Part shown: positions 10-39,860 of the stretch, piece by piece
Layout of the letters: each line of letters starts with the position of its first letter
How positions within the stretch are numbered: the first letter of the stretch is position 1
NCBI GenBank assembly: GCA_017615125.1
Contig: JAGAAS010000106.1
Location: forward strand, 1 to 47,264
Direction of reading: 5' to 3'
Length of the DNA: 47,264 nt
Source: Bacteroidaceae bacterium
GTDB taxonomy: Bacteria > Bacteroidota > Bacteroidia > Bacteroidales > Bacteroidaceae
Notes under the pieces: generated by a model
The model's database searches: none
The model's input: only the letters and a program-made list of their open reading frames with translations
What the model was told of the DNA's origin: nothing
Position numbers and translations under genes: made by a program

Positions 10-62
10 TCCCTTCTTCATACGGCGAGATGTAGAAAGAAAAAAAATTTTTCCCTTCTCCA
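10..62. repeat. 21-nt lattice repeat, locus A (mixed orientation)
   Basis: Three 11-nt cores start exactly 21 nt apart: TCCCTTCTTCA at 10, TGTAGAAAGAA at 31 and TCCCTTCTCCA at 52. The middle core is in the opposite orientation to its neighbours. The 10-nt spacers are TACGGCGAGA (21-30) and AAAAAATTTT (42-51). It lies just upstream of araA. The same modules recur at about 10.6, 15.7, 15.8, 26.9, 33.3 and 38.6 kb. Function unknown. Confidence 0.85.
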
Positions 63-8959: not shown

Positions 8960-9079
8960 AAAAGCTTTATACCTTCACGAAGGCACACGTTCACCTTCAT
9001 GAAGGAACACGTTCACCTTCATGAAGGAACACGTTCGCCAACGTGAAGGAACACGTGTTCCTTCGTGATGTCAAAACAA
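8960..9079. repeat. 22-nt lattice repeat, copy 1 (four units)
   Basis: Four tandem 22-nt units start at 8973, 8995, 9017 and 9039, each an 11-nt CTTCATGAAGG-type word followed by an 11-nt AACACGTTCAC-type word. The left flank is AAAAGCTTTATACC and the right flank CTTCGTGATGTCAAAACAA. The last unit contributes the perfect 20-bp palindrome of 9045-9064. A second copy with the same flanks lies at 20575-20672. It sits between the convergent msrA and xylA genes and codes for nothing evident. Confidence 0.85.
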
Positions 9080-10595: not shown

Positions 10596-10658
10596 TGGAG
10601 AAGGAATCTCGCCGTATTCTTTCTACATCTCGCGAGATTCTTTCTTCATAATTTTTTA
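10596..10658. repeat. 21-nt lattice repeat, locus B
   Basis: Cores TGGAGAAGGAA (10596), TTCTTTCTACA (10617) and TTCTTTCTTCA (10638) are spaced exactly 21 nt apart, with spacers TCTCGCCGTA, TCTCGCGAGA and TAATTTTTTA. The first core is inverted relative to the other two. The last spacer contains the xylB stop codon (10656-10658). Confidence 0.85.
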
Positions 10659-12140
10659 TTCTTTGGGAAGGTAGGATTTCCAGCGCTCGTAAGCTTCGCG
10701 GTATTCCTCCACATGGGCAACGTCGGGCTCGACATAGGCGATTCGCTCAAGCGTAGCGAAGGCTTCGTTGTGATCCTTGTAGATTCCTGCACCCATACCT
10801 GCGCCTTTCGCGGAGCCCACAGAGCCGTCGGTGTCGAAAAGCTCGATTGAAGCACCCGTGATGCTTGCTAGCGTGTTGCGGAAGGCAGGATTCAGGAACA
10901 TGTTGGCGTGTCCCGCATGAATCTTATTAATAGGAATACCCATCTCGCCCATAATATCCATTCCGTACTTGAACGAGAAGACGATACCCTCCTGTGCCGC
11001 ACGCAACAGATGGGCTCTGTTGTGCACGTTAAAGTTCAGTCCATGTATGCTGCAGCCTACCTCTTGATTGCGGAGCACTCGCTCGGCGCCGTTGCCGAAT
11101 GGAAGGATGCTGATGCCGTAGCTTCCGATGGGAACGGTGTCGGCAATCTCGTTCATCTGCGCATACGAAACGCCCTCGGGGGCAACGTTGCGGCGCATCC
11201 AGGAATTGAGGATTCCCGTACCGTTGATGCAAAGGAGCACGCCCAGACGAGTCTGCTCGGCAGTATGATTCACATGTGCGAAGGTGTTTACTCGGCTCAG
11301 CGGATCGTATCCCACCTTGCCCAGCACGCCATATACGACGCCCGAGGTGCCAGCCGTAGCGGCAATCTCGCCTGGGTTGAACACGTTGAGCGAAAGCGCA
11401 TTGTTGGGCTGGTCTCCTCCGCGATAGGTAACGGGAATACCTGCCGCGAGGCCCAGTTCCTCAGCAACGGAGGCTGTTGTCCTGCCCTGCTCGGAGAAGG
11501 TAGGAACGATGGGCGGGATGATCGAAGAATCAAAGCCGTAATAGTCCATCAGGAAGTCGGCAACCTTGTTGTTGCGGAAGTCCCAGAACATTCCCTCGGA
11601 GAGTCCCGAAACCGTCGTGCAGGCTTCTCCTGTCAGGCGCATAGCGATGTAGTCGCCCGGAAGCATAATCTTGTCGATACGGGCAAAGATGTCGGGCTCG
11701 TTCTCCTTTACCCAAGCGAGCTTGGAGGCTGTGAAGTTGCCGGGAGAATTGAGCAGATGTCCGAGACAGCGTTCCTCGCCCAGCGCCTCGAAAGCCTTGT
11801 TGCCGTAGGGCACAGCGCGCGAGTCGCACCAGATGATAGCAGGGCGCAGGACACGTTTATCCTTGTCCACGCACACTAGTCCGTGCATCTGATAGCTGAT
11901 ACCTATCGCTGCCACTTCGTCGCCCTTCACGCCGGCTGATGTCATTACCTCGCGGGTGACTTCCTTCAGGTAGCTCCACCAGTCCTCAGGGTTCTGCTCT
12001 GCCCATCCTGGGCGCACGGCGCGGATAGGAGCCTCGCTCTTGGGGTAGAAAGCATTTGCCACACTCTTACCTGTCTCCACGCTCACCAGACTTGCCTTTA
12101 CCGACGAGCTGCCAATGTCGTAACCTATCAGATATTTCAT
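10656..12140 (-). CDS. xylB: xylulokinase
   Basis: FGGY-family kinase phosphorylating D-xylulose to xylulose 5-phosphate, 494 residues, typical for XylB. YLIGYDIGSSSVKASLV is the ATP phosphate loop. AAIGISYQMHGLVCVDKD and PAIIWCDSRA form the sugar-site block, and ATAGTSGVVYG and the C-terminal NKIHAGHANMFLNPAFRNTLA and GSVGSAKGAGMGAG blocks complete the fold. It is upstream of xylA on the same strand and has a consensus -7 box 38 nt upstream. Assignment as xylulokinase rests on the MHG/WCDSRA motifs and the xylA neighbour. The protein is clearly distinct from the araA-linked kinase at 1.9 kb. Confidence 0.96.
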   Translation of the reverse strand: MKYLIGYDIGSSSVKASLVSVETGKSVANAFYPKSEAPIRAVRPGWAEQNPEDWWSYLKEVTREVMTSAGVKGDEVAAIGISYQMHGLVCVDKDKRVLRPAIIWCDSRAVPYGNKAFEALGEERCLGHLLNSPGNFTASKLAWVKENEPDIFARIDKIMLPGDYIAMRLTGEACTTVSGLSEGMFWDFRNNKVADFLMDYYGFDSSIIPPIVPTFSEQGRTTASVAEELGLAAGIPVTYRGGDQPNNALSLNVFNPGEIAATAGTSGVVYGVLGKVGYDPLSRVNTFAHVNHTAEQTRLGVLLCINGTGILNSWMRRNVAPEGVSYAQMNEIADTVPIGSYGISILPFGNGAERVLRNQEVGCSIHGLNFNVHNRAHLLRAAQEGIVFSFKYGMDIMGEMGIPINKIHAGHANMFLNPAFRNTLASITGASIELFDTDGSVGSAKGAGMGAGIYKDHNEAFATLERIAYVEPDVAHVEEYREAYERWKSYLPKE

Positions 12141-14962: not shown

Positions 14963-15679
14963 TCAGTCGTCGGGGATAAGGTTTTCGGGATCGATGATGT
15001 GGAGCTCGATGGCGCGCACAACTAACCGTACCGAGTTGACCGTTCTTCCGTCGTTGTCGGGAAAGAGGCGTGCAATAAGGTCTGCCTGCCGTTTCTCGAG
15101 CGACTTCGTGCTGAACGGCATCGTGCGCAGCGTTGAAATCTGGTCCTTCGTATATCCCAGCGCGAGATGCCTGAGGTAGCGCTCGTCGTACTCGTCGATG
15201 TCGTACTCAATGATGGCTTTCCGACGCATTGTCTCGGCGTTGACGGCTTGGCGGAAACGTTCGACAATCTTTTCAAGGATGGGCTGGTTGAAAACCCACT
15301 GCTTCCCCTCCATCACGCGCCGCACCTCGTCGCGAGTGAGCAGCTCGCCCGTCTTCAGCACGATGCCGTTGGCGCCAGCATCCAGCACGTCAACCCAAAG
15401 TTTCTCGTTCAGCACTTCGCCTGTGAAGATGAGGACCTTAACGGAGGAGAACTCCTTGCGAAGACGGCGACAGATTTCGACGCCTATCGTGGTAGAGCCC
15501 CCAAGCCCCAAGTCGAGCAACACCATATCGGGCACCTCCTTCTCCATCAAGGGCCAGAACTCGGCTTCCGACATAGCCGTACCAATAACTTCGGCTTCGG
15601 GAATCTCCGTGCGGAAAATCTCCACCGTTCCCTTCATCTCAAGCTTGACATCCTCTACGATAATAACTTTCCAAGACAT
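14963..15679 (-). CDS. response regulator, receiver plus LuxR-like C-terminus
   Basis: 238-residue response regulator. The receiver domain spans about residues 1-120: acidic pocket Glu9-Asp10, phospho-acceptor Asp56 in VLLDLGLGG, Thr86 in LIFTGE and Lys109 in IVLKT, all as expected for a phosphorylatable receiver. The C-terminal part (YLRHLALGYTKDQISTL then FSTKSLEKRQADLIARLF) has the spacing of a LuxR/NarL helix-turn-helix but is divergent. It lies 169 nt after the tandem sensor kinase on the same strand, so the two are a likely phosphorelay pair. The next gene downstream is the GH2 lipoprotein, a possible but unproven target. The promoter region between kinase and regulator contains two 21-nt repeat arrays. 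Confidence 0.88.
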   Translation of the reverse strand: MSWKVIIVEDVKLEMKGTVEIFRTEIPEAEVIGTAMSEAEFWPLMEKEVPDMVLLDLGLGGSTTIGVEICRRLRKEFSSVKVLIFTGEVLNEKLWVDVLDAGANGIVLKTGELLTRDEVRRVMEGKQWVFNQPILEKIVERFRQAVNAETMRRKAIIEYDIDEYDERYLRHLALGYTKDQISTLRTMPFSTKSLEKRQADLIARLFPDNDGRTVNSVRLVVRAIELHIIDPENLIPDD

Positions 15680-15687
15680 ATATTTTT

Positions 15688-15740
15688 TCTTTCTACAAAA
15701 TTATTTTTTCTTTCTTCATCTCGCGAGATTCTTTGAGCAT
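15688..15740. repeat. 21-nt lattice repeat, locus C
   Basis: Cores TTCTTTCTACA (15688), TTCTTTCTTCA (15709) and the diverged TTCTTTGAGCA (15730) are exactly 21 nt apart, with spacers AAATTATTTT and TCTCGCGAGA. It begins 9 nt upstream of the response-regulator start codon and so falls in its 5' untranslated region if transcribed from the kinase side. Confidence 0.8.
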
Positions 15741-15812
15741 ATTTATCTATGCTCTTCCTCTGTCGCGACTCGGGATAACTAAAGCAAGCTTCGTTCTCCT
15801 CTTGCTGCTCCA

Positions 15813-15844
15813 TCGGTTCTTCATACGGCGAGATTCCTTCTCCA
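15813..15844. repeat. 21-nt lattice repeat, locus D (partial)
   Basis: A degenerate core TCGGTTCTTCA (15813), spacer TACGGCGAGA and core TTCCTTCTCCA (15834) keep the 21-nt register. It abuts the stop codon of the sensor kinase (15849). The 72 nt between loci C and D may be decayed units. Confidence 0.7.
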
Positions 15845-26850: not shown

Positions 26851-26976
26851 TTCTTTCTACATAATTATTTTTCCCTTCTCCAAAAAAAATTTTCCCTTCT
26901 TGAAAAATTTTTTTTCTTTCTTCATACGGCGAGATTCTTTCTTCATCTCGCCGTTTTCTTTCTTCATAATTTTTTC
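26851..26976. repeat. 21-nt lattice repeat, locus E (six units, the longest)
   Basis: Six cores start at 26851, 26872, 26893, 26914, 26935 and 26956, every 21 nt without a slip: TTCTTTCTACA, TCCCTTCTCCA, TCCCTTCTTGA, then TTCTTTCTTCA three times. Spacers include TAATTATTTT, AAAAAAATTT, AAAATTTTTT, TACGGCGAGA and TCTCGCCGTT. The last two are complementary, so 26926-26934 and 26146-type equivalent 26946-26954 can form a 9-bp stem with a core as the loop. The stop codon of the acyltransferase (26964-26966) lies inside the last core. Confidence 0.9.
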
Positions 26977-28109
26977 TCCTTTGTCTTCTTGATGCCGAAC
27001 ATCATCCAACGGATGAGGGGAATTCTCCGAAGCGATTCCCACAAGGCAATCGAGACAAGGAACGTTGCCAGCAGCGTAATGACATAAATGGCCCATACGG
27101 GCAATGTTGTCATCGTCTTCAGCGTCCAGGCTGTTGCCAGACAGGGAAGATAATGCACGATGTAGAGCCCGAAGCTGCTGCGCGTCATATATGTTGCGAA
27201 GCCCGAAGTCTTGTTGCCCCACGCCTTGAAGCAGCCCAGCATAGCCAGCACAGCCATCCACGCATAGACATTCGTCAAGCGCCTGGGTGCAAGCATAGGA
27301 TAGTCAGCTCCGAAGTTACGGTAAACATACAGCACAGCACATGTGATGCCGATGAACAGCAGCGCCCAGCGCTGTTCGGCCAACGCGTCGGTAACCTTCT
27401 CGTGCGACAGCACATAATACCCAACCAAGAAACCCACGAGATAGAACAGCGGGCGATACAAGTTGAGCAAACCAGCCCACGGATGTGCTTCAGTAGAGCC
27501 CGGGAACCACTGAGCAGCCAGCCAGAAGAGAGCAGCAAGCGCCATCAACGAAACAGTTATCGTGATGCTCGACATATTTCCCAGTTTTCCGCAAAACGCG
27601 TAGGCTCGGTCCTTCTTGTCGAGCAAGCGGAAGACAACGAGCAGAAGCGAGAACAGCCACAAATCCTGAATAAACCAAAGCGGCCCGATGCCGGTAAAGG
27701 CGTAGATGAAATAGCGGATTACCCCCGGAACGCCCTCTGGAATACTTCCTCCGCTGGCAAACATGTTGAGGTAACCCGTCATCCAATGGTAGACAAACAA
27801 GCCAAGAGTGGAAGGAACCAGCAGTTTCGTCGTACGAGAACGGATAAACTGGCGATGAGCCTCCTTTCTACTGGGAAGTTTCGCTTCCAGACTCTCCAGC
27901 GCATAACGCGAGCACATGCCCGCAACGACAAACAACAGCAGCATGAACCAAGGATAGAGCACATACTCGATGACGTCCTGATACTGCACTTCGGCAAAGC
28001 CGCCTATGCCCCCGAAGACGCCTTCGGCATTGAAAAGATAGAAAACGTGGTAGACAAGCACCAGCACGACAGTTATCCATCTTATATTATCCAAATAAAC
28101 TCGTCTCAT
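26964..28109 (-). CDS. acyltransferase family 3 membrane protein
   Basis: Membrane acyltransferase (Acyl_transf_3, OatA/NodX-like), 381 residues from the Met of RRVYLDNIRW, with about ten hydrophobic segments. The start YLDNIRWITVVLVLVYHVFYLF holds the family's R/D-x-x-R and H residues, and RSFGLYIVHYLP-like SSFGLYIVHYLPCLA near residue 310 is the usual late signature. Such enzymes transfer acetyl or other acyl groups to sugars or lipids at the inner membrane; the acceptor here is unknown. The 7-codon longer start at 28130 is less likely. The stop codon falls within 21-nt repeat locus E. Confidence 0.88.
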   Translation of the reverse strand: MRRVYLDNIRWITVVLVLVYHVFYLFNAEGVFGGIGGFAEVQYQDVIEYVLYPWFMLLLFVVAGMCSRYALESLEAKLPSRKEAHRQFIRSRTTKLLVPSTLGLFVYHWMTGYLNMFASGGSIPEGVPGVIRYFIYAFTGIGPLWFIQDLWLFSLLLVVFRLLDKKDRAYAFCGKLGNMSSITITVSLMALAALFWLAAQWFPGSTEAHPWAGLLNLYRPLFYLVGFLVGYYVLSHEKVTDALAEQRWALLFIGITCAVLYVYRNFGADYPMLAPRRLTNVYAWMAVLAMLGCFKAWGNKTSGFATYMTRSSFGLYIVHYLPCLATAWTLKTMTTLPVWAIYVITLLATFLVSIALWESLRRIPLIRWMMFGIKKTKEKKL

Positions 28110-28173
28110 TGTTTTATCTGATAAAAACATTTCTGATATTTCACACGTCAGACACGCGCAAGTCGTCGGAGCC

Positions 28174-32294: not shown

Positions 32295-33281
32295 ATGAAG
32301 ATTTCTATATTAGGAGGCTCTGGTTTCGTCGGCACTCGCTTGATTGAACTGCTGAAAGATGATTACGAGATTGAGAACATCGATCTCGTCAACAGCCCTT
32401 TCTTCCCGGAACTGACACGAATCGGCGACGTCCGCATTCCTGCGCAGATGAACGAGATGCTTAGGGGGACAGACATCGTGGTTCTTCTGGCAGCACAGCA
32501 CCGAGACGACGTCACGCCCACTTCCCTCTATTACGACACCAACGTGGAAGGGATGAGAGTAGTGCTTGACGCTATGGAATTAAACGGCATCAAGCGACTC
32601 GTATTCTTTTCCAGCCTTGCCATCTATGGCCTCGACAAAGAGATGCCCAAGGAAGACAGCCCCGCAGATCCGTTCAATCACTACGGCAAATCAAAATGGC
32701 AAGCAGAGCAAGTCCTTCAAGCCTGGCTGTCGAGCCATTCTGACGTAACGGCTACCATTTTGCGTCCTACCGTTATTTTCGGAGAGCGAAACAGAGGAAA
32801 TGTCTACAATCTGCTCAACCAGATAGCCCGAGGGCGTTTTATGATGGTAGGCAACGGGAAAAACCGCAAGTCGATGGCCTATGTGGGAAACATCGTCAGC
32901 TTTGTCAAGCACGTTCTGGAGACGGATACCGAGGGCTGCCAAGTTTACAACTATTCCGACGGACCTGACTTCGACATGAATAGCCTTGTACAGCTTGCCG
33001 AAGAGGTTCTCGGCAAGAAAATTCCGACTGTTCACCTCCCCTACTGGCTGGGAATGGCTGGAGGATACGTTTTCGACGCTCTTGCGTGGATTACCCGTAA
33101 GAAGTTAAACATCAGCTCCGTCAGAGTAAAGAAATTCTGCGCAAGCACGCAGACCGACTCCACCAAAGCACATTCAACCGGTTTCGTTCCTCCCTATACG
33201 CTCCGCGAAGGACTTTCCCGCACACTTCTCTTTGAATTTGTTCATCCTCAGCCCGACAGCATCACCTTCCATACGGAATAA
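32295..33281 (+). CDS. NAD-dependent epimerase/dehydratase (extended SDR)
   Basis: 328 residues, extended short-chain dehydrogenase fold. The N-terminal ISILGGSGFVGTRLIELL is the Rossmann glycine loop (GxxGxxG). IVVLLAAQHRDD, VFFSSLAIYG and NHYGKSKWQAEQVL give the Ser and YxxxK catalytic residues, and ATILRPTVIFGERNRGNVYNLL is the downstream substrate-side block. Substrate unknown; relatives act on nucleotide sugars. It is on the opposite strand from the polysaccharide locus and converges on it. Its own promoter and the shared terminator make it a single-gene unit. Confidence 0.92.
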   Translation: MKISILGGSGFVGTRLIELLKDDYEIENIDLVNSPFFPELTRIGDVRIPAQMNEMLRGTDIVVLLAAQHRDDVTPTSLYYDTNVEGMRVVLDAMELNGIKRLVFFSSLAIYGLDKEMPKEDSPADPFNHYGKSKWQAEQVLQAWLSSHSDVTATILRPTVIFGERNRGNVYNLLNQIARGRFMMVGNGKNRKSMAYVGNIVSFVKHVLETDTEGCQVYNYSDGPDFDMNSLVQLAEEVLGKKIPTVHLPYWLGMAGGYVFDALAWITRKKLNISSVRVKKFCASTQTDSTKAHSTGFVPPYTLREGLSRTLLFEFVHPQPDSITFHTE

Positions 33282-33317: not shown

Positions 33318-33391
33318 TGAAGAAAGAAAACGGCGAGATGAAGAAAGAATCTCGCGAGATGTAGAAAGAAAAAATTTTTTTGAAGAAAGAA
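33318..33391. repeat. 21-nt lattice repeat, locus F (four units)
   Basis: Cores TGAAGAAAGAA (33318), TGAAGAAAGAA (33339), TGTAGAAAGAA (33360) and TGAAGAAAGAA (33381) are exactly 21 nt apart with spacers AACGGCGAGA, TCTCGCGAGA and AAAATTTTTT. This is the clearest single-orientation example. It lies between convergent genes and runs directly into the terminator. Confidence 0.9.
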
Positions 33392-33422
33392 AAAACGTCA
33401 CCTCTCAGAGATGGCGTTTTTT
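33390..33422. terminator. bidirectional terminator, epimerase and GT2
   Basis: AAAAAACG (33390-33397) pairs with CGTTTTTT (33415-33422), extended inward by U-G, C-G and A-U pairs, one mismatch and CTC/GAG. A-run and T-run flank the stem, so it serves both convergent genes. It overlaps the stop codon of the GT2 gene on the other strand. Confidence 0.75.
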
Positions 33423-34254
33423 AGATTTCTACAGGATTGGGATGATCCTTGAGGTATTTCTTTATATCGCGACGTTTCTTGAGCTTTTTTAGGACATACG
33501 CAGGCAGAAAGCAGAAGAACAGGTAGAAATAGGAGTGAACCTTCGAGTATCCCAAGACAATCTGATACACTTGAACTGCATACCGAACCAAAGGAATCTT
33601 CTTGCGCGACAATGAGTTGCGACTCAGGTTATAATACGTCAGCACCTCGTCAACGCCAAAAGCCTCCTTGCATTTTTGCAGAATGAGCAAGACAAGAGCC
33701 CAGTCCTGACGGCGGCGGATAGTAGGCATGTAGAATTTCCCGAACTTGCTGGTATCGTACATTGCCGTAGAGAAACCGATTTTATCGTCGTGAAGCGTGT
33801 CGCGGAAAGTCAGGCGCTCGGGAGGAAGCATGATGCTGACAGCATTTCCCGCATCGTTCAGCTCAAGATACGAAGTGTAGCTCAGACAGCAGTCCTTTTC
33901 CTGCATCAGCTTCAGCTGCTTCTCCAGCTTCGTAGGCATCCAGTAATCATCTCCGTCGCAGAAGGCGATATATCTCCCGCGAGCCATTTCAGTACACTTG
34001 TTACGTGCTACGCCTGCGCCTGAATTCTTTTCCAGATAGAAAACCCGAACGCGAGGGTCTTTCTCGAAGGACGAAAGTATCTCGTGCACCTTCGGATCGG
34101 TAGAACAATCGTCGGTAATGACAAGCTCGAAATCGGTAAAAGTCTGAGAGAGGACACACTCAATTGTCTTCTTCAAATACCGCCCACAATTGTATGTCGG
34201 CATTATTACCGACACCAAAGGCTCCTTGTTTATGCTTTGCGTATCTTCGAGCAT
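33421..34254 (-). CDS. GT2-family glycosyltransferase
   Basis: 277 residues from the Met at 34254, GT-A fold. VSVIMPTYNCGRYLKKTIECVLSQTFTDFELVITDDCSTD is the nucleotide-sugar binding N-terminus, with AFCDGDDYW (DxD-like) at mid-protein and a basic C-terminus. A start at 34284 is possible in frame, but a consensus promoter box (34271-34278) lies inside that extension, so 34254 is preferred. Last gene of the polysaccharide locus; donor and acceptor sugars unknown. Confidence 0.88.
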   Translation of the reverse strand: MLEDTQSINKEPLVSVIMPTYNCGRYLKKTIECVLSQTFTDFELVITDDCSTDPKVHEILSSFEKDPRVRVFYLEKNSGAGVARNKCTEMARGRYIAFCDGDDYWMPTKLEKQLKLMQEKDCCLSYTSYLELNDAGNAVSIMLPPERLTFRDTLHDDKIGFSTAMYDTSKFGKFYMPTIRRRQDWALVLLILQKCKEAFGVDEVLTYYNLSRNSLSRKKIPLVRYAVQVYQIVLGYSKVHSYFYLFFCFLPAYVLKKLKKRRDIKKYLKDHPNPVEI

Positions 34255-34270
34255 TTCCAAAAATTGCGTG

Positions 34271-34278
34271 CAAAGGTA
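34271..34278 (-). promoter_or_regulatory. Bacteroidetes-type promoter of the last GT2 gene
   Basis: Reads TACCTTTG on the - strand, 17 nt before the preferred start at 34254. It implies that this gene can be transcribed apart from the rest of the locus. Confidence 0.55.
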
Positions 34279-34366
34279 CAACAAAGCAAGCGAAAAGGAA
34301 AAGAAAACTGTCTTTTTTTATTTTCTCCGAGTTATATTTCCTTGAGACTAATCCTGACGAAGATGA

Positions 34367-37587: not shown

Positions 37588-38542
37588 CGGTACGTTTCAG
37601 AAAATCAAAATATGTCCCATCGTGCAACATATGCTGAAAATCTTCCTGCGAGATGCCTTTTTTAGTACGTGCATCCGCTCCGAGGTGCTCTGCAAGCTGC
37701 TTTGCCTGCTTCTTGCTCAGCCCGTCAGCTTGGAAATACCTCAGGCTCTTCTTCATCGTCAGCAAACGGATGAGAGAAAACTCCAAAGGCGAATAATAAT
37801 CGCGGGCAACAAGGAGACGCCCAAGATAGTACATATAGTCCCTTCCGAGCATAGCGTTGGAAGCCTTTTTTGTGGAAGAGCCCACTTTATGATAGATGAC
37901 GGAATCTCTCACTATCACCATTTTTTCGCCCCGAGAACGCATCCGGAGGGCAAATTCGTAGTCTTCCTCTCCGAAGAAGAACTTCTCCGTCAGCAGTTTC
38001 CCGCTTTCGTCCACCAACGAAGAATCCACCATAAGAGCACAACCCGAAATGAACGATACCGGGAAAGGAGTACGCTCGGGCAAGTCGCTCACGAAGGCAT
38101 TCCGGTAATACGCCTTCCGCGAACCGAAGATCAGCTTGCCTCCGCAAGACCAAATCCGCACCTTTTCTCCCCAATAGTTGATCAGAGGACCCAACACCTT
38201 ACATTCAGCATGTTCCGCACGATATGCCTGCAACTTAAGCAGGAAATCCGGCTCCACTTCCGTATCGTTGTTAAGAAGCATGTATGAGTCGGGATTGTAC
38301 TTACGGGCGTAAGCTATTGCCTTATTGTTGCCCACAGCAAAGCCGTAATTCCTGTCGAGCGGCAACAGTTCTGTCTTCAGAGTCGATGTAGCGAGGAACT
38401 CCCCTATCCGCTCTCTGCTGTCGTCCGACGAGCCATTATCGGCAACGACCACACGGAAATCGCCCTTCGTACGCTCAAGCGACTTAAGGCAGGCGATGGT
38501 ATCGTCGGCTCCGTTCCAGTTAATGATTATAAACAACGTCAT
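37580..38542 (-). CDS. GT2-family glycosyltransferase (rhamnosyltransferase-like)
   Basis: 320 residues, GT-A fold. TLFIIINWNGADDTIACLKSLE, VVVADNGSSDDSRE, NYGFAVGNNKAI and YMLLNNDTEVEPDFL (DxD-like) form the nucleotide-sugar site, and FFGEEDYEFALRMRSRG is the conserved acceptor-side block seen in rhamnosyltransferase-like members. Substrate is not certain. It overlaps the polymerase gene by 23 nt upstream and wzx by 8 nt downstream, so it is translationally linked to both. Confidence 0.92.
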   Translation of the reverse strand: MTLFIIINWNGADDTIACLKSLERTKGDFRVVVADNGSSDDSRERIGEFLATSTLKTELLPLDRNYGFAVGNNKAIAYARKYNPDSYMLLNNDTEVEPDFLLKLQAYRAEHAECKVLGPLINYWGEKVRIWSCGGKLIFGSRKAYYRNAFVSDLPERTPFPVSFISGCALMVDSSLVDESGKLLTEKFFFGEEDYEFALRMRSRGEKMVIVRDSVIYHKVGSSTKKASNAMLGRDYMYYLGRLLVARDYYSPLEFSLIRLLTMKKSLRYFQADGLSKKQAKQLAEHLGADARTKKGISQEDFQHMLHDGTYFDFLKRTDE

Positions 38543-39860
38543 CGTGAGAAAGCATGTTATTTTTTGGAGAAGGAATCTCGCGCGCTCGAGAAGGAATCTC
38601 GCCGTATGAAGAAAGAATAATTCCTTTTGGAGAAGGGAAAAAAGTTTTTTCCTTCTTCATAAACATCCAATCCAGTACGTGCAAGAGGATAATCATCGCG
38701 GGGATTTCAACAACGTCAAGATGGAAGAAATAGAACTCAAACCACCCCATCGCCAGCAAGGCGCAGAAGTAGTAATAGGTAGTGCATGTGAAAAGGTTGT
38801 TGAACCCTACGGAAATGATTTTCAGCGTATAGCAGAAGGCACTCAGGCCCAGGGTGTAAAGTGCAAACTGAACGGGAGAGGTGTATATATATAGCGTGCC
38901 GAAGACCGTACGCACGTTCGTCAGGCTTATGCCCGTAAAGAAGAATGTCGGATTCACAGGAGAGAGTACCTCCTTGTTCCCGGTAATCTGATTGTATATA
39001 TTGATAAATGGAGTCCAGATGACATCAAAATCTCCTCTGTCGGGAAAGCCCAGCTCCATATCGACGCTCAGTCCCAAGGTACCGCTCGAGAAATAGTGGA
39101 CAAAGCGCTGAAAAATCCAAAGCAAGACTCCACCATTGATGTCGATATCGTTCACAACGACGATAGCAAGCCCGAATGAAACAAAGAACACAGCCAACGC
39201 ACCTATTAATATAGTAAGGACAAGGCGCCCTGTAATCCGCATCTTTCCAGAAGCCAAGCGAAGGAGCACGCCCACAACAACAGGAATAATCATCGTGCCC
39301 TTCACCATATTGATTACGCTTACAACCATGAAGGCGATAATGAAAATCCAAATCCAAGGCTGACGCTTGTTCACGTAGTAGATGCACAACATAAGCATCA
39401 CTACGCAGAAACGCTTCAAGTGCGCCCAAAAGCCAAAGCCCGCAAACTCCTCAGCAAAGTCATCGGAACCAATCAGGAACTGAGAGCTATGTATCGTGCT
39501 CATAAGCCGATACGAAAACATCATCAACAGGACAACGCATATAAGCGTAAAGACAAGCGGAATCCTTGACTCTTCAATATCGGTTCGCTCCGTTGGGTAA
39601 TTGTTTTTCCGGGCATATCCCGCAAGAGCAAAGCTCGGAATAGCAAAAAGCAGAAGTCCTACATTCCAGATCAAGATGCTCGGAAAGTAGAACTCCACAA
39701 AATCAAACCGTCCCGATATGGCAATTGAGACAATGAGCACTACCAGGTAAGGGAGCATCAGGAAATTCAAGGGAGTGAGCAGCGTCTTCCACGCTTTCTT
39801 CTCGAGATAGAACAAAATCCCTATCTCGATTAGAATGGAAAGGAAATACAGGAAGCCCAT
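38520..39860 (-). CDS. wzy: Wzy-type polysaccharide polymerase with repeat-encoded tail
   Basis: 446 residues, about a dozen hydrophobic segments and a large periplasmic loop, fitting an O-antigen/capsule repeat-unit polymerase; Wzy sequences are poorly conserved, so the call rests on topology and context (between Wzz and the glycosyltransferases). The last membrane segment ends near residue 400 (ILLHVLDWMF). Residues about 401-433 are encoded by 21-nt repeat locus G and show a 7-residue period (FFPSPKG, IILSSYG, EIPSRAR, EIPSPKN). The tail then runs on to overlap the next gene by 23 nt. The original stop was probably upstream of the repeat. Confidence 0.82.
   Translation of the reverse strand: MGFLYFLSILIEIGILFYLEKKAWKTLLTPLNFLMLPYLVVLIVSIAISGRFDFVEFYFPSILIWNVGLLLFAIPSFALAGYARKNNYPTERTDIEESRIPLVFTLICVVLLMMFSYRLMSTIHSSQFLIGSDDFAEEFAGFGFWAHLKRFCVVMLMLCIYYVNKRQPWIWIFIIAFMVVSVINMVKGTMIIPVVVGVLLRLASGKMRITGRLVLTILIGALAVFFVSFGLAIVVVNDIDINGGVLLWIFQRFVHYFSSGTLGLSVDMELGFPDRGDFDVIWTPFINIYNQITGNKEVLSPVNPTFFFTGISLTNVRTVFGTLYIYTSPVQFALYTLGLSAFCYTLKIISVGFNNLFTCTTYYYFCALLAMGWFEFYFFHLDVVEIPAMIILLHVLDWMFMKKEKTFFPSPKGIILSSYGEIPSRAREIPSPKNNMLSHDDVVYNH
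38565..38659. repeat. 21-nt lattice repeat, locus G (inside wzy)
   Basis: Cores TGGAGAAGGAA (38565), TCGAGAAGGAA (38586), TGAAGAAAGAA (38607), TGGAGAAGGGA (38628) and, inverted, TTCCTTCTTCA (38649) keep exact 21-nt spacing. Spacers are TCTCGCGCGC, TCTCGCCGTA, TAATTCCTTT and AAAAAGTTTT. It is the only copy within a coding region, and as 21 is a multiple of three it leaves the frame open. Confidence 0.88.

Follow-up and report, generated by a model that had tools for sequence, protein, structure and literature searches.

BOX elements are modular intergenic repeats built from a small set of subunits, which are fixed and longer and are not known to follow a 21-bp lattice. Iterons and comparable multi-site arrays, for instance those of replication initiators or of Mu- and Tn7-type transposases, repeat protein sites at about two helical turns and lie at an origin or at transposon ends. 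The closest described element to the arrays reported here is BrickBuilt of Porphyromonas gingivalis which, according to excerpts of its description, has 19 copies of head-to-tail 23-mers with a leader and a tail bearing IS5-like inverted ends, not both of which are present in every copy (PMC4596501). REPs have a 5–13 bp stem with a GTAG or CGTC tag next to it, many are tied to RAYT transposases, and most of their dimer spacers vary in length, although some evenly spaced tandem REP arrays are described (PMC3733652, PMC3116915).

The window analysed here is a 47,264-nucleotide stretch (contig 73) of a 3.03 Mb Bacteroidaceae MAG (G000; 107 contigs, 87% complete), and its genes include araA, FGGY kinases, GH97, and a CotH/dockerin protein; together with the yak-omasum relative named below, they suggest a Bacteroidales of the gut or rumen. 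An earlier note, made from the letters alone, described seven sites in it that share one design of 11-nt cores and 10-nt spacers, with core starts never departing from 21 nt. All seven are present as described (see table), and a two-core pattern with up to 3 mismatches matches the window 21 times, compared with a mean of 0.04 in dinucleotide shuffles. A strict caller recovers six of the arrays, the seventh site being 15813–15844, and in several arrays the lattice extends one degraded slot past the ends given earlier. The strict 21-nt spacing holds throughout the window but not absolutely in the sampled DNA of the two genomes: of 324 close neighbours, 14 miss the 21-bp distance by up to 3 bp, some of these being background. 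At the 26851–26966 array the first bases of the outermost core form the stop codon of an acyltransferase ORF (26964–28130, minus strand), and the array therefore begins at the end of that gene. The window also contains a period-22 tandem repeat at 8971–9068 (ACCTTCATGAAGGAACACGTTC, 3.9 copies), the sequence of which is unlike the arrays. Rfam models gave no match over the window at the gathering threshold; two matches near 15.7 kb score far under it.

Arrays and the associated hairpin element in the window
Feature	Positions	Strand	Context and remarks
Array, 3 cores, mixed orientation	10–62		Upstream of araA (L-arabinose isomerase, 107–1648, +)
Array, 3 cores	10596–10648		Directly past the stop of an FGGY kinase gene (10656–12140, -)
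Array, 2 cores plus edge core TGCTCAAAGAA	15687–15739	-	Upstream of a response-regulator gene (14963–15679, -)
Hairpin-bearing middle of the composite	15735–15819	-	Dispersed family with covarying stem; 21-bp phase kept between the cores on either side
Composite, second half (a good core and a degraded one)	15813–15844	-	Exactly in phase with the array at 15687 (126 = 6x21)
Array, 6 cores, single orientation	26851–26966	-	Site of the earlier note
Array, 4 cores	33318–33391	+	Between convergent ORFs 32295–33281 (+) and 33421–34284 (-)
Array, 5 cores	38565–38659	+	In the 3' coding end of the DUF6337 gene (38520–39860, -), in frame, 7 codons per unit

The arrays extend well beyond the window and are shared with a sister species, represented by the congener RGIG9746 from yak omasum (G005, a MAG that is 91% complete). 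The final, profile-based caller found 58 arrays in the 492 kb sampled from G000 and 91 in the 620 kb sampled from G005; mononucleotide-shuffled G000 sequence yielded none. Totals of ~350 arrays in G000 and ~500 in G005 are extrapolations from these stretches, which were not randomly chosen. A genome-wide count with a test of phasing had been named beforehand as the check on the proposal, and arrays are far above the control: the degenerate two-core pattern finds 454 same-orientation neighbour pairs in G000 compared with one for the reversed control, and distances of 21, 42, and 63 bp dominate. The dispersed repeat family is real and strongly ordered.

The pattern GARGAARGAA-N10-TGNAGAARGRA matches 148 times in G000 and 139 times in G005, and not once in 17 other congeners and 22 further genomes, with its reversed control giving no match in any of the 41. 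A looser three-core lattice pattern, scanned over 150 genomes, matches 215 times in G000, 180 times in G005, and between 1 and 6 times in each of six other genomes, including congener G013; we did not accept the latter as family members, since by eye those printed resemble heptad repeats, except in G129, where other modules are repeated in tandem. The reversed control of this looser pattern gave 5 matches in G005, 22 in G017, 1 in G048, and 3 in G071, and those in G017 and G005 are heptanucleotide repeats rather than versions of the family. These repeats are of GTAAGAG type (C94, C113, C187, and C197 of G017; C7:3996–4066 of G005) and are unlike the arrays. Matches from other phyla were also set aside, those listed being mostly two-core matches together with a few single-spacer or short-period tandem repeats. 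Viral contigs gave no match to a pattern for GC-type spacers only, and plasmids and phages gave none to one 126-base query each with the low-complexity filter on. Among the genomes searched, the array family is confined to the two sister species. As the earlier note had suspected, no catalogued family was found; in the open-access literature, outside of which most subscription journals lie, no described repeat was recognised as these arrays, and set against the searched open-access papers the 21-bp family is apparently new.

In the G000 sample 167 core pairs are 21 bp apart, 110 are 42 bp apart, and 61 are 63 bp apart, with a total of 7 at 18–20 and 22–24 bp; the G005 numbers are 143, 101, 64, and 7 respectively. 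Cores of opposite orientation occupy the same slots, with 39 such pairs at 21 bp in 441 kb. The 11-bp slot has the consensus T-NN-AGAA-N-G-N-A, and in G000 cores positions T1, A4, G5, A6, A7, G9, and A11 are conserved at 99–100%, while positions 2, 3, 8, and 10 vary in small sets. When interior slots are picked solely by their neighbours, 108 of 109 in G000 have at most one mismatch to the degenerate core, and A4, A6, A7, G9, and A11 are at 100%. The corresponding number in G005 is 66 of 101, and 17 of the 25 weaker slots printed carry the species-typical CAAA/CACA core.

Spacers can be divided into two 5-nt halves that are nearly always of the same class (GC+GC or AT+AT), mixed-class spacers being few (11/169 in G000, 23/233 in G005). 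The GC-type spacers have a central GC (70 of 71 in G000, 87 of 95 in G005), and the AT-type spacers run from A to T in 70/87 and 89/115 and from T to A in 1/87 and 0/115, the rest doing neither. Outermost half-spacers are mainly A/T (82 of 102), and past the last core the lattice signal fades from ~9 bits to 2–3 in the next slot and ~1 in the slot after, so that there is no constant end sequence. Linkage is strong between adjacent parts, namely between the two arms of a core, between a core arm and a half-spacer, and between the two halves of a spacer, and is weak between the half-spacers flanking one core (z 5.9 and 4.9). We considered spacer-centred modules joined at AGAA as the unit, and rejected this as the core arms in G000 are linked (z 22.9) at least as strongly as any other neighbours (z 5.9 to 17.2). 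A heptad-coding origin was also rejected; the purine strand is readable as a charged heptad, but by eye the TGTAG cores and TAA spacers give in-frame stops. Predicted intrinsic curvature from phased A-tracts is not increased; computed with wedge angles, the arrays curve less than their dinucleotide shuffles, with a mean z of +1.2 and +0.9 compared with ~+0.1 for neighbouring controls.

A neutral, degenerate minisatellite, in which slippage expands 21-bp units and the lattice is nothing but the unit length, is difficult to reconcile with one alphabet being common to hundreds of separate places, with the in-register flips, and with the scarcity of length errors in spacers that are rich in homopolymers. 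Units are not head-to-tail and near-identical as in a simple minisatellite, orientations and modules being mixed, and successive identical spacers are below expectation in G000 (3/111, expected 10.0 ± 2.8), although not clearly rarer in G005 (4/151, expected 5.8 ± 2.5). We therefore regard this explanation as improbable, even though unit length does not vary, some arrays of G005 consist of near-homogeneous 21-mers (C10:26048–26121), and neighbouring same-orientation cores in G000 are identical slightly above expectation (25/125, expected 18.3 ± 3.8; 17/177 are identical in G005). A Kapaibacterium (L062) and a Nostoc (L107) have tandem repeats of 21-bp period that combine a comparable core with a single spacer, which also speaks for it.

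Using ORFs of at least 150 aa, arrays occupy 69/273 of the co-directional gaps, 23/78 of the convergent ones, and 20/76 of the divergent ones (P 0.48–1.0), and the purine strand is sense in 36 cases and antisense in 31. Gaps carrying an array are longer (median 259 compared with 170 bp), and 21 of 149 array centres fall within called ORFs, some of which may be spurious. With gap types about equally occupied, and in both orientations, we rejected a terminator or promoter role. An RNA-level element more generally (a terminator, mRNA stabiliser, or processing hairpin) would account for folding energies that are below those of dinucleotide shuffles on both strands, with a mean z of -1.91 in G000 (100 strands) and -1.55 in G005 (130); z falls under -2 in 39% and 38% of these, and in 6% and 9% of control sequence taken 300 bp leftward. 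Arrays in co-directional gaps are also closer to the upstream stop (47/69), and an earlier, cruder count, in which many arrays were swallowed by short spurious ORFs, placed few arrays in divergent gaps (3/33 and 3/21 of placed arrays). However, the later count shows similar occupancy of divergent and convergent gaps and no preferred orientation, perfect inverted core pairs are not in excess (1/24 with 2.2 expected; 0/30 with 3.7 expected), and a 21-nt lattice is no requirement of RNA structure, such that an RNA-level role seems very improbable. The paired RNA modules suggested in the earlier note, with folding that exceeds shuffles on both strands but no preference of strand or gap type, are weakly supported at best. 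Flipping of cores via quasi-palindrome template switching, which predicts an excess of perfect inverted neighbours, was rejected on the same counts.

Comparison of the sister species shows how the arrays change. When 31 window ORFs were compared with 100 kb of G005 C24, 21 matched, 20 of them at 71–98% protein identity and one, out of order, at 49%. Synteny anchors in the sampled G005 DNA are available for 16 of the 58 G000 arrays and lacking for 42; ten of the 16 have an array at the orthologous place in G005 and six have none. The site at 10–62, which is also occupied in G005 (C24:52141–52193, with one core flipped), lies at the window edge and was left out of this count. Among G005 arrays 17 of 91 are anchored (74 are not), ten of which are shared with G000 and seven not. 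Positional sharing by chance has P 0.0016–0.007 at 25–30% gap occupancy and P 0.09 at 43%; occupancy by ORF count is 26% (112/427), and 43% is the highest estimate, from the cruder count. Retention of many array positions across the sister species is supported, but less firmly.

Within retained arrays the register is held while the modules differ. The counterpart of the 10596–10648 array (C24:67146–67198) has equal length and register. At five orthologous loci the fixed core positions differ at 4 of 119 (3%), the variable core positions at 25 of 68, and spacers at 55 of 140 (39%), with two flips among the 19 slots; these conservation counts are biased, as the loci were chosen for equal slot number and the arrays are detected via their cores. 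Across four of the loci there are 77 differences and the length never changes, although at one of the four the aligner favoured two 6-nt gaps over the ungapped pairing that we counted; array-free syntenic gaps (19 of 23, at least 60% identical) have 85 gap openings per 422 substitutions, or 0.20 each. Module use differs strongly by species: spacer TCTCGCCGTA is present in 36/58 G000 arrays and 3/91 G005 arrays, TATCG half-spacers in 2/58 and 60/91, and CAAA/CACA cores in 3/58 and 50/91. Species-specific module alphabets across loci are a case of concerted evolution, and they point to in-register recombination or conversion between arrays. The earlier claim of module swapping on an exact lattice holds up; the companion argument, that register could not survive such swapping, was too strong, as in-register recombination or conversion via a common core would keep it.

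The arrays that lie in frame within genes are clear in the polA and GSCFA genes of G005 and in the DUF6337 gene of both species. At the DUF6337 tail, five cores persist in G000 and G005 (C24:111100–111194) and the peptide diverges; here the DNA pattern is kept, rather than the peptide. The array in the G005 DNA polymerase I gene lies in the linker that separates the 5'-3' exonuclease domains from the rest of the protein (L141:9955–10028, equivalent to C5:89955–90028), and nothing similar was found in the G000 gene or in the peptides of 13 other congeners. The G005 GSCFA-family gene has four lattice slots, one of them reversed (L191:2995–3068, equivalent to C23:62995–63068); the G000 ortholog lacks the cores and is equally long in this region, at 85 nt counted to the same point.

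We tentatively favour, at a little short of an even chance, an interpretation in which these are lineage-restricted arrays of a recognition site, T-NN-AGAA-N-G-N-A, that evolve by in-register exchange, with the lattice reflecting a DNA-level constraint set by a putative binding factor. Each of these short, mostly intergenic arrays would consist of double-stranded sites that can face either way, with one to each 21-bp slot (two helical turns); the spacers between them have a GC at the centre or else an A-tract with a T-tract after it. Ectopic recombination or gene conversion, acting through the cores that arrays have in common, may swap modules in register, and such exchange would produce swaps and flips with the register unbroken. 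The fixed bases and two-turn spacing could then be kept by a putative DNA-binding protein that touches a number of sites along the same helix face, serving either the host (e.g. in nucleoid organisation) or the repeat's own spread. In-register exchange through shared cores would together explain the swaps, flips, species-wide alphabets, and stable lattice, but it does not by itself explain the seven kept core positions and the two-turn spacing. Either a one-face DNA-binding factor or a transposase needing intact sites would explain these, and the core conservation can also be explained by recent copying. As the family is not found in 17 congeners, any host function must be dispensable in the genus. 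Selection for DNA-face spacing, as proposed in the earlier note, may be at work and is compatible with a fixed 21-bp slot in either core orientation and in every gap type.

Some arrays lie inside, or travel with, longer dispersed elements, and most of those sampled lack such a flank. Using the 82 G005 arrays of the first, stricter caller (the profile-based caller giving 91), a flank matches that of another array in the same genome over at least 40 bp for 10/58 arrays in G000 and 19/82 in G005, leaving 48/58 and 63/82 without a match. Two pairs share both flanks (C91:21627 and C91:33819 in G000; C43:714 and C5:120990 in G005), and most of the flank-matching arrays in G000 carry a hairpin-bearing element. 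Three G005 arrays (C5:120990, L142; C43:714, L192; C8:99874, L147) have a common flank of ~100–120 bp with 75–87% identity, which contains a ATTATTGTTTAACTC-type inverted sequence and belongs to a longer dispersed element that carries the array. A second dispersed element of ~80 bp forms a hairpin and is found at 15735–15819 of the window (minus strand), L120:17038–17122, L134:39–123, L199:2064–2148, and L130:18770–18850, with further copies in L200, L201, L142, L187, and L118. Its stem covaries, with compensatory changes at 10 of 13 predicted pairs among 13 copies. The 21-bp phase of the flanking cores is kept across four of five G000 copies and is off by one in the fifth, and some G005 copies have no core in the printed 40 bp.

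The location of a minority of arrays within longer dispersed elements makes mobility a serious rival. The arrays might be MITE-like, meaning short elements that are non-autonomous, spread by copying, and offer their 21-bp units to a transposase as binding repeats, such that core conservation reflects recent copying and not host function. Several observations are as such an element would predict: 6/16 and 7/17 anchored arrays are found in a single species, the array-bearing gap is often, though not always, the longer one, and the composite at 15687–15844 is missing from G005, where 34 bp correspond to its 178 bp. Part of the flank matches are genuine longer dispersed elements, as expected for mobility, but several of the 15 flank-match pairs in G005 consist of nothing but additional array modules or arise where the flanks of adjacent arrays overlap, and the majority of arrays have no matching flank or constant end sequence. 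BrickBuilt, in the excerpted description, sets a precedent as a repeat-unit MITE from the same order (PMC4596501). However, by eye the empty sites lack a clear target duplication, modules change in place at retained sites, and the Y1 transposase (RAYT, PF01797), the only transposase family tested, has no match in G000 or G005, an absence that is not final for MAGs of 87% and 91% completeness. We consider a mobile origin of this kind possible, if doubtful.

A more specific version of the recognition-site interpretation has a dedicated putative DNA-binding protein using hundreds of two-turn-spaced intergenic arrays, be it in organising the nucleoid, in copy control, or in programmed exchange, within a lineage-specific, genome-wide system whose site alphabet has shifted in concert between the sister species; as a whole, we judge this rather unlikely. 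As a natural example, the arrays show cleanly how dispersed and very short repeats of bacteria evolve in concert, and so strict a register points towards DNA being physically constrained. A protein reading the arrays, if there is one, could represent a new type of factor for structuring bacterial chromosomes or maintaining repeats; if there is none, a two-turn lattice can be held through the separation of two species by exchange of modules alone.

Among the systems introduced above, BOX elements share modular assembly from few subunits with the arrays, which differ in being on a 21-bp lattice, and in contrast to the iteron and Mu- and Tn7-type arrays they occupy hundreds of intergenic places. 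Like REPs, BIMEs, and REPINs as presented in the excerpted accounts, they are many, short, mostly extragenic, of mixed orientation, and clustered, with palindromic parts, but they have a fixed 21-bp spacing and no RAYT was found with them (PMC3733652, PMC3116915). A GTAG or CGTC tag beside a palindrome is not a feature of the arrays, TGTAG being merely one among several core starts (TGTAGAAAGAA accounts for 26/237 G000 cores), and a RAYT-driven REP was rejected since neither of the two incomplete MAGs, G000 and G005, has a Y1 transposase match; 7 of 19 genus members do. BrickBuilt, as described, is similar in being from Bacteroidales, in having tandem units near two helical turns (23 nt), a limited host range, and many intergenic copies per genome, and in differing in unit number at a locus among strains (PMC4596501). 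Where BrickBuilt has a leader and a tail, no constant ends were found here, and the minority of arrays in longer dispersed elements have flanks from several different elements, some of which are merely array modules. BrickBuilt is placed only intergenically, whereas some array centres are within called ORFs (21/149, some ORFs perhaps being spurious). In place of a 23-nt head-to-tail unit, the arrays of these two species are present in hundreds, on a 21-bp lattice of mixed orientation, with flippable cores, variable spacers combined from a few halves, and in-frame copies in a few genes.
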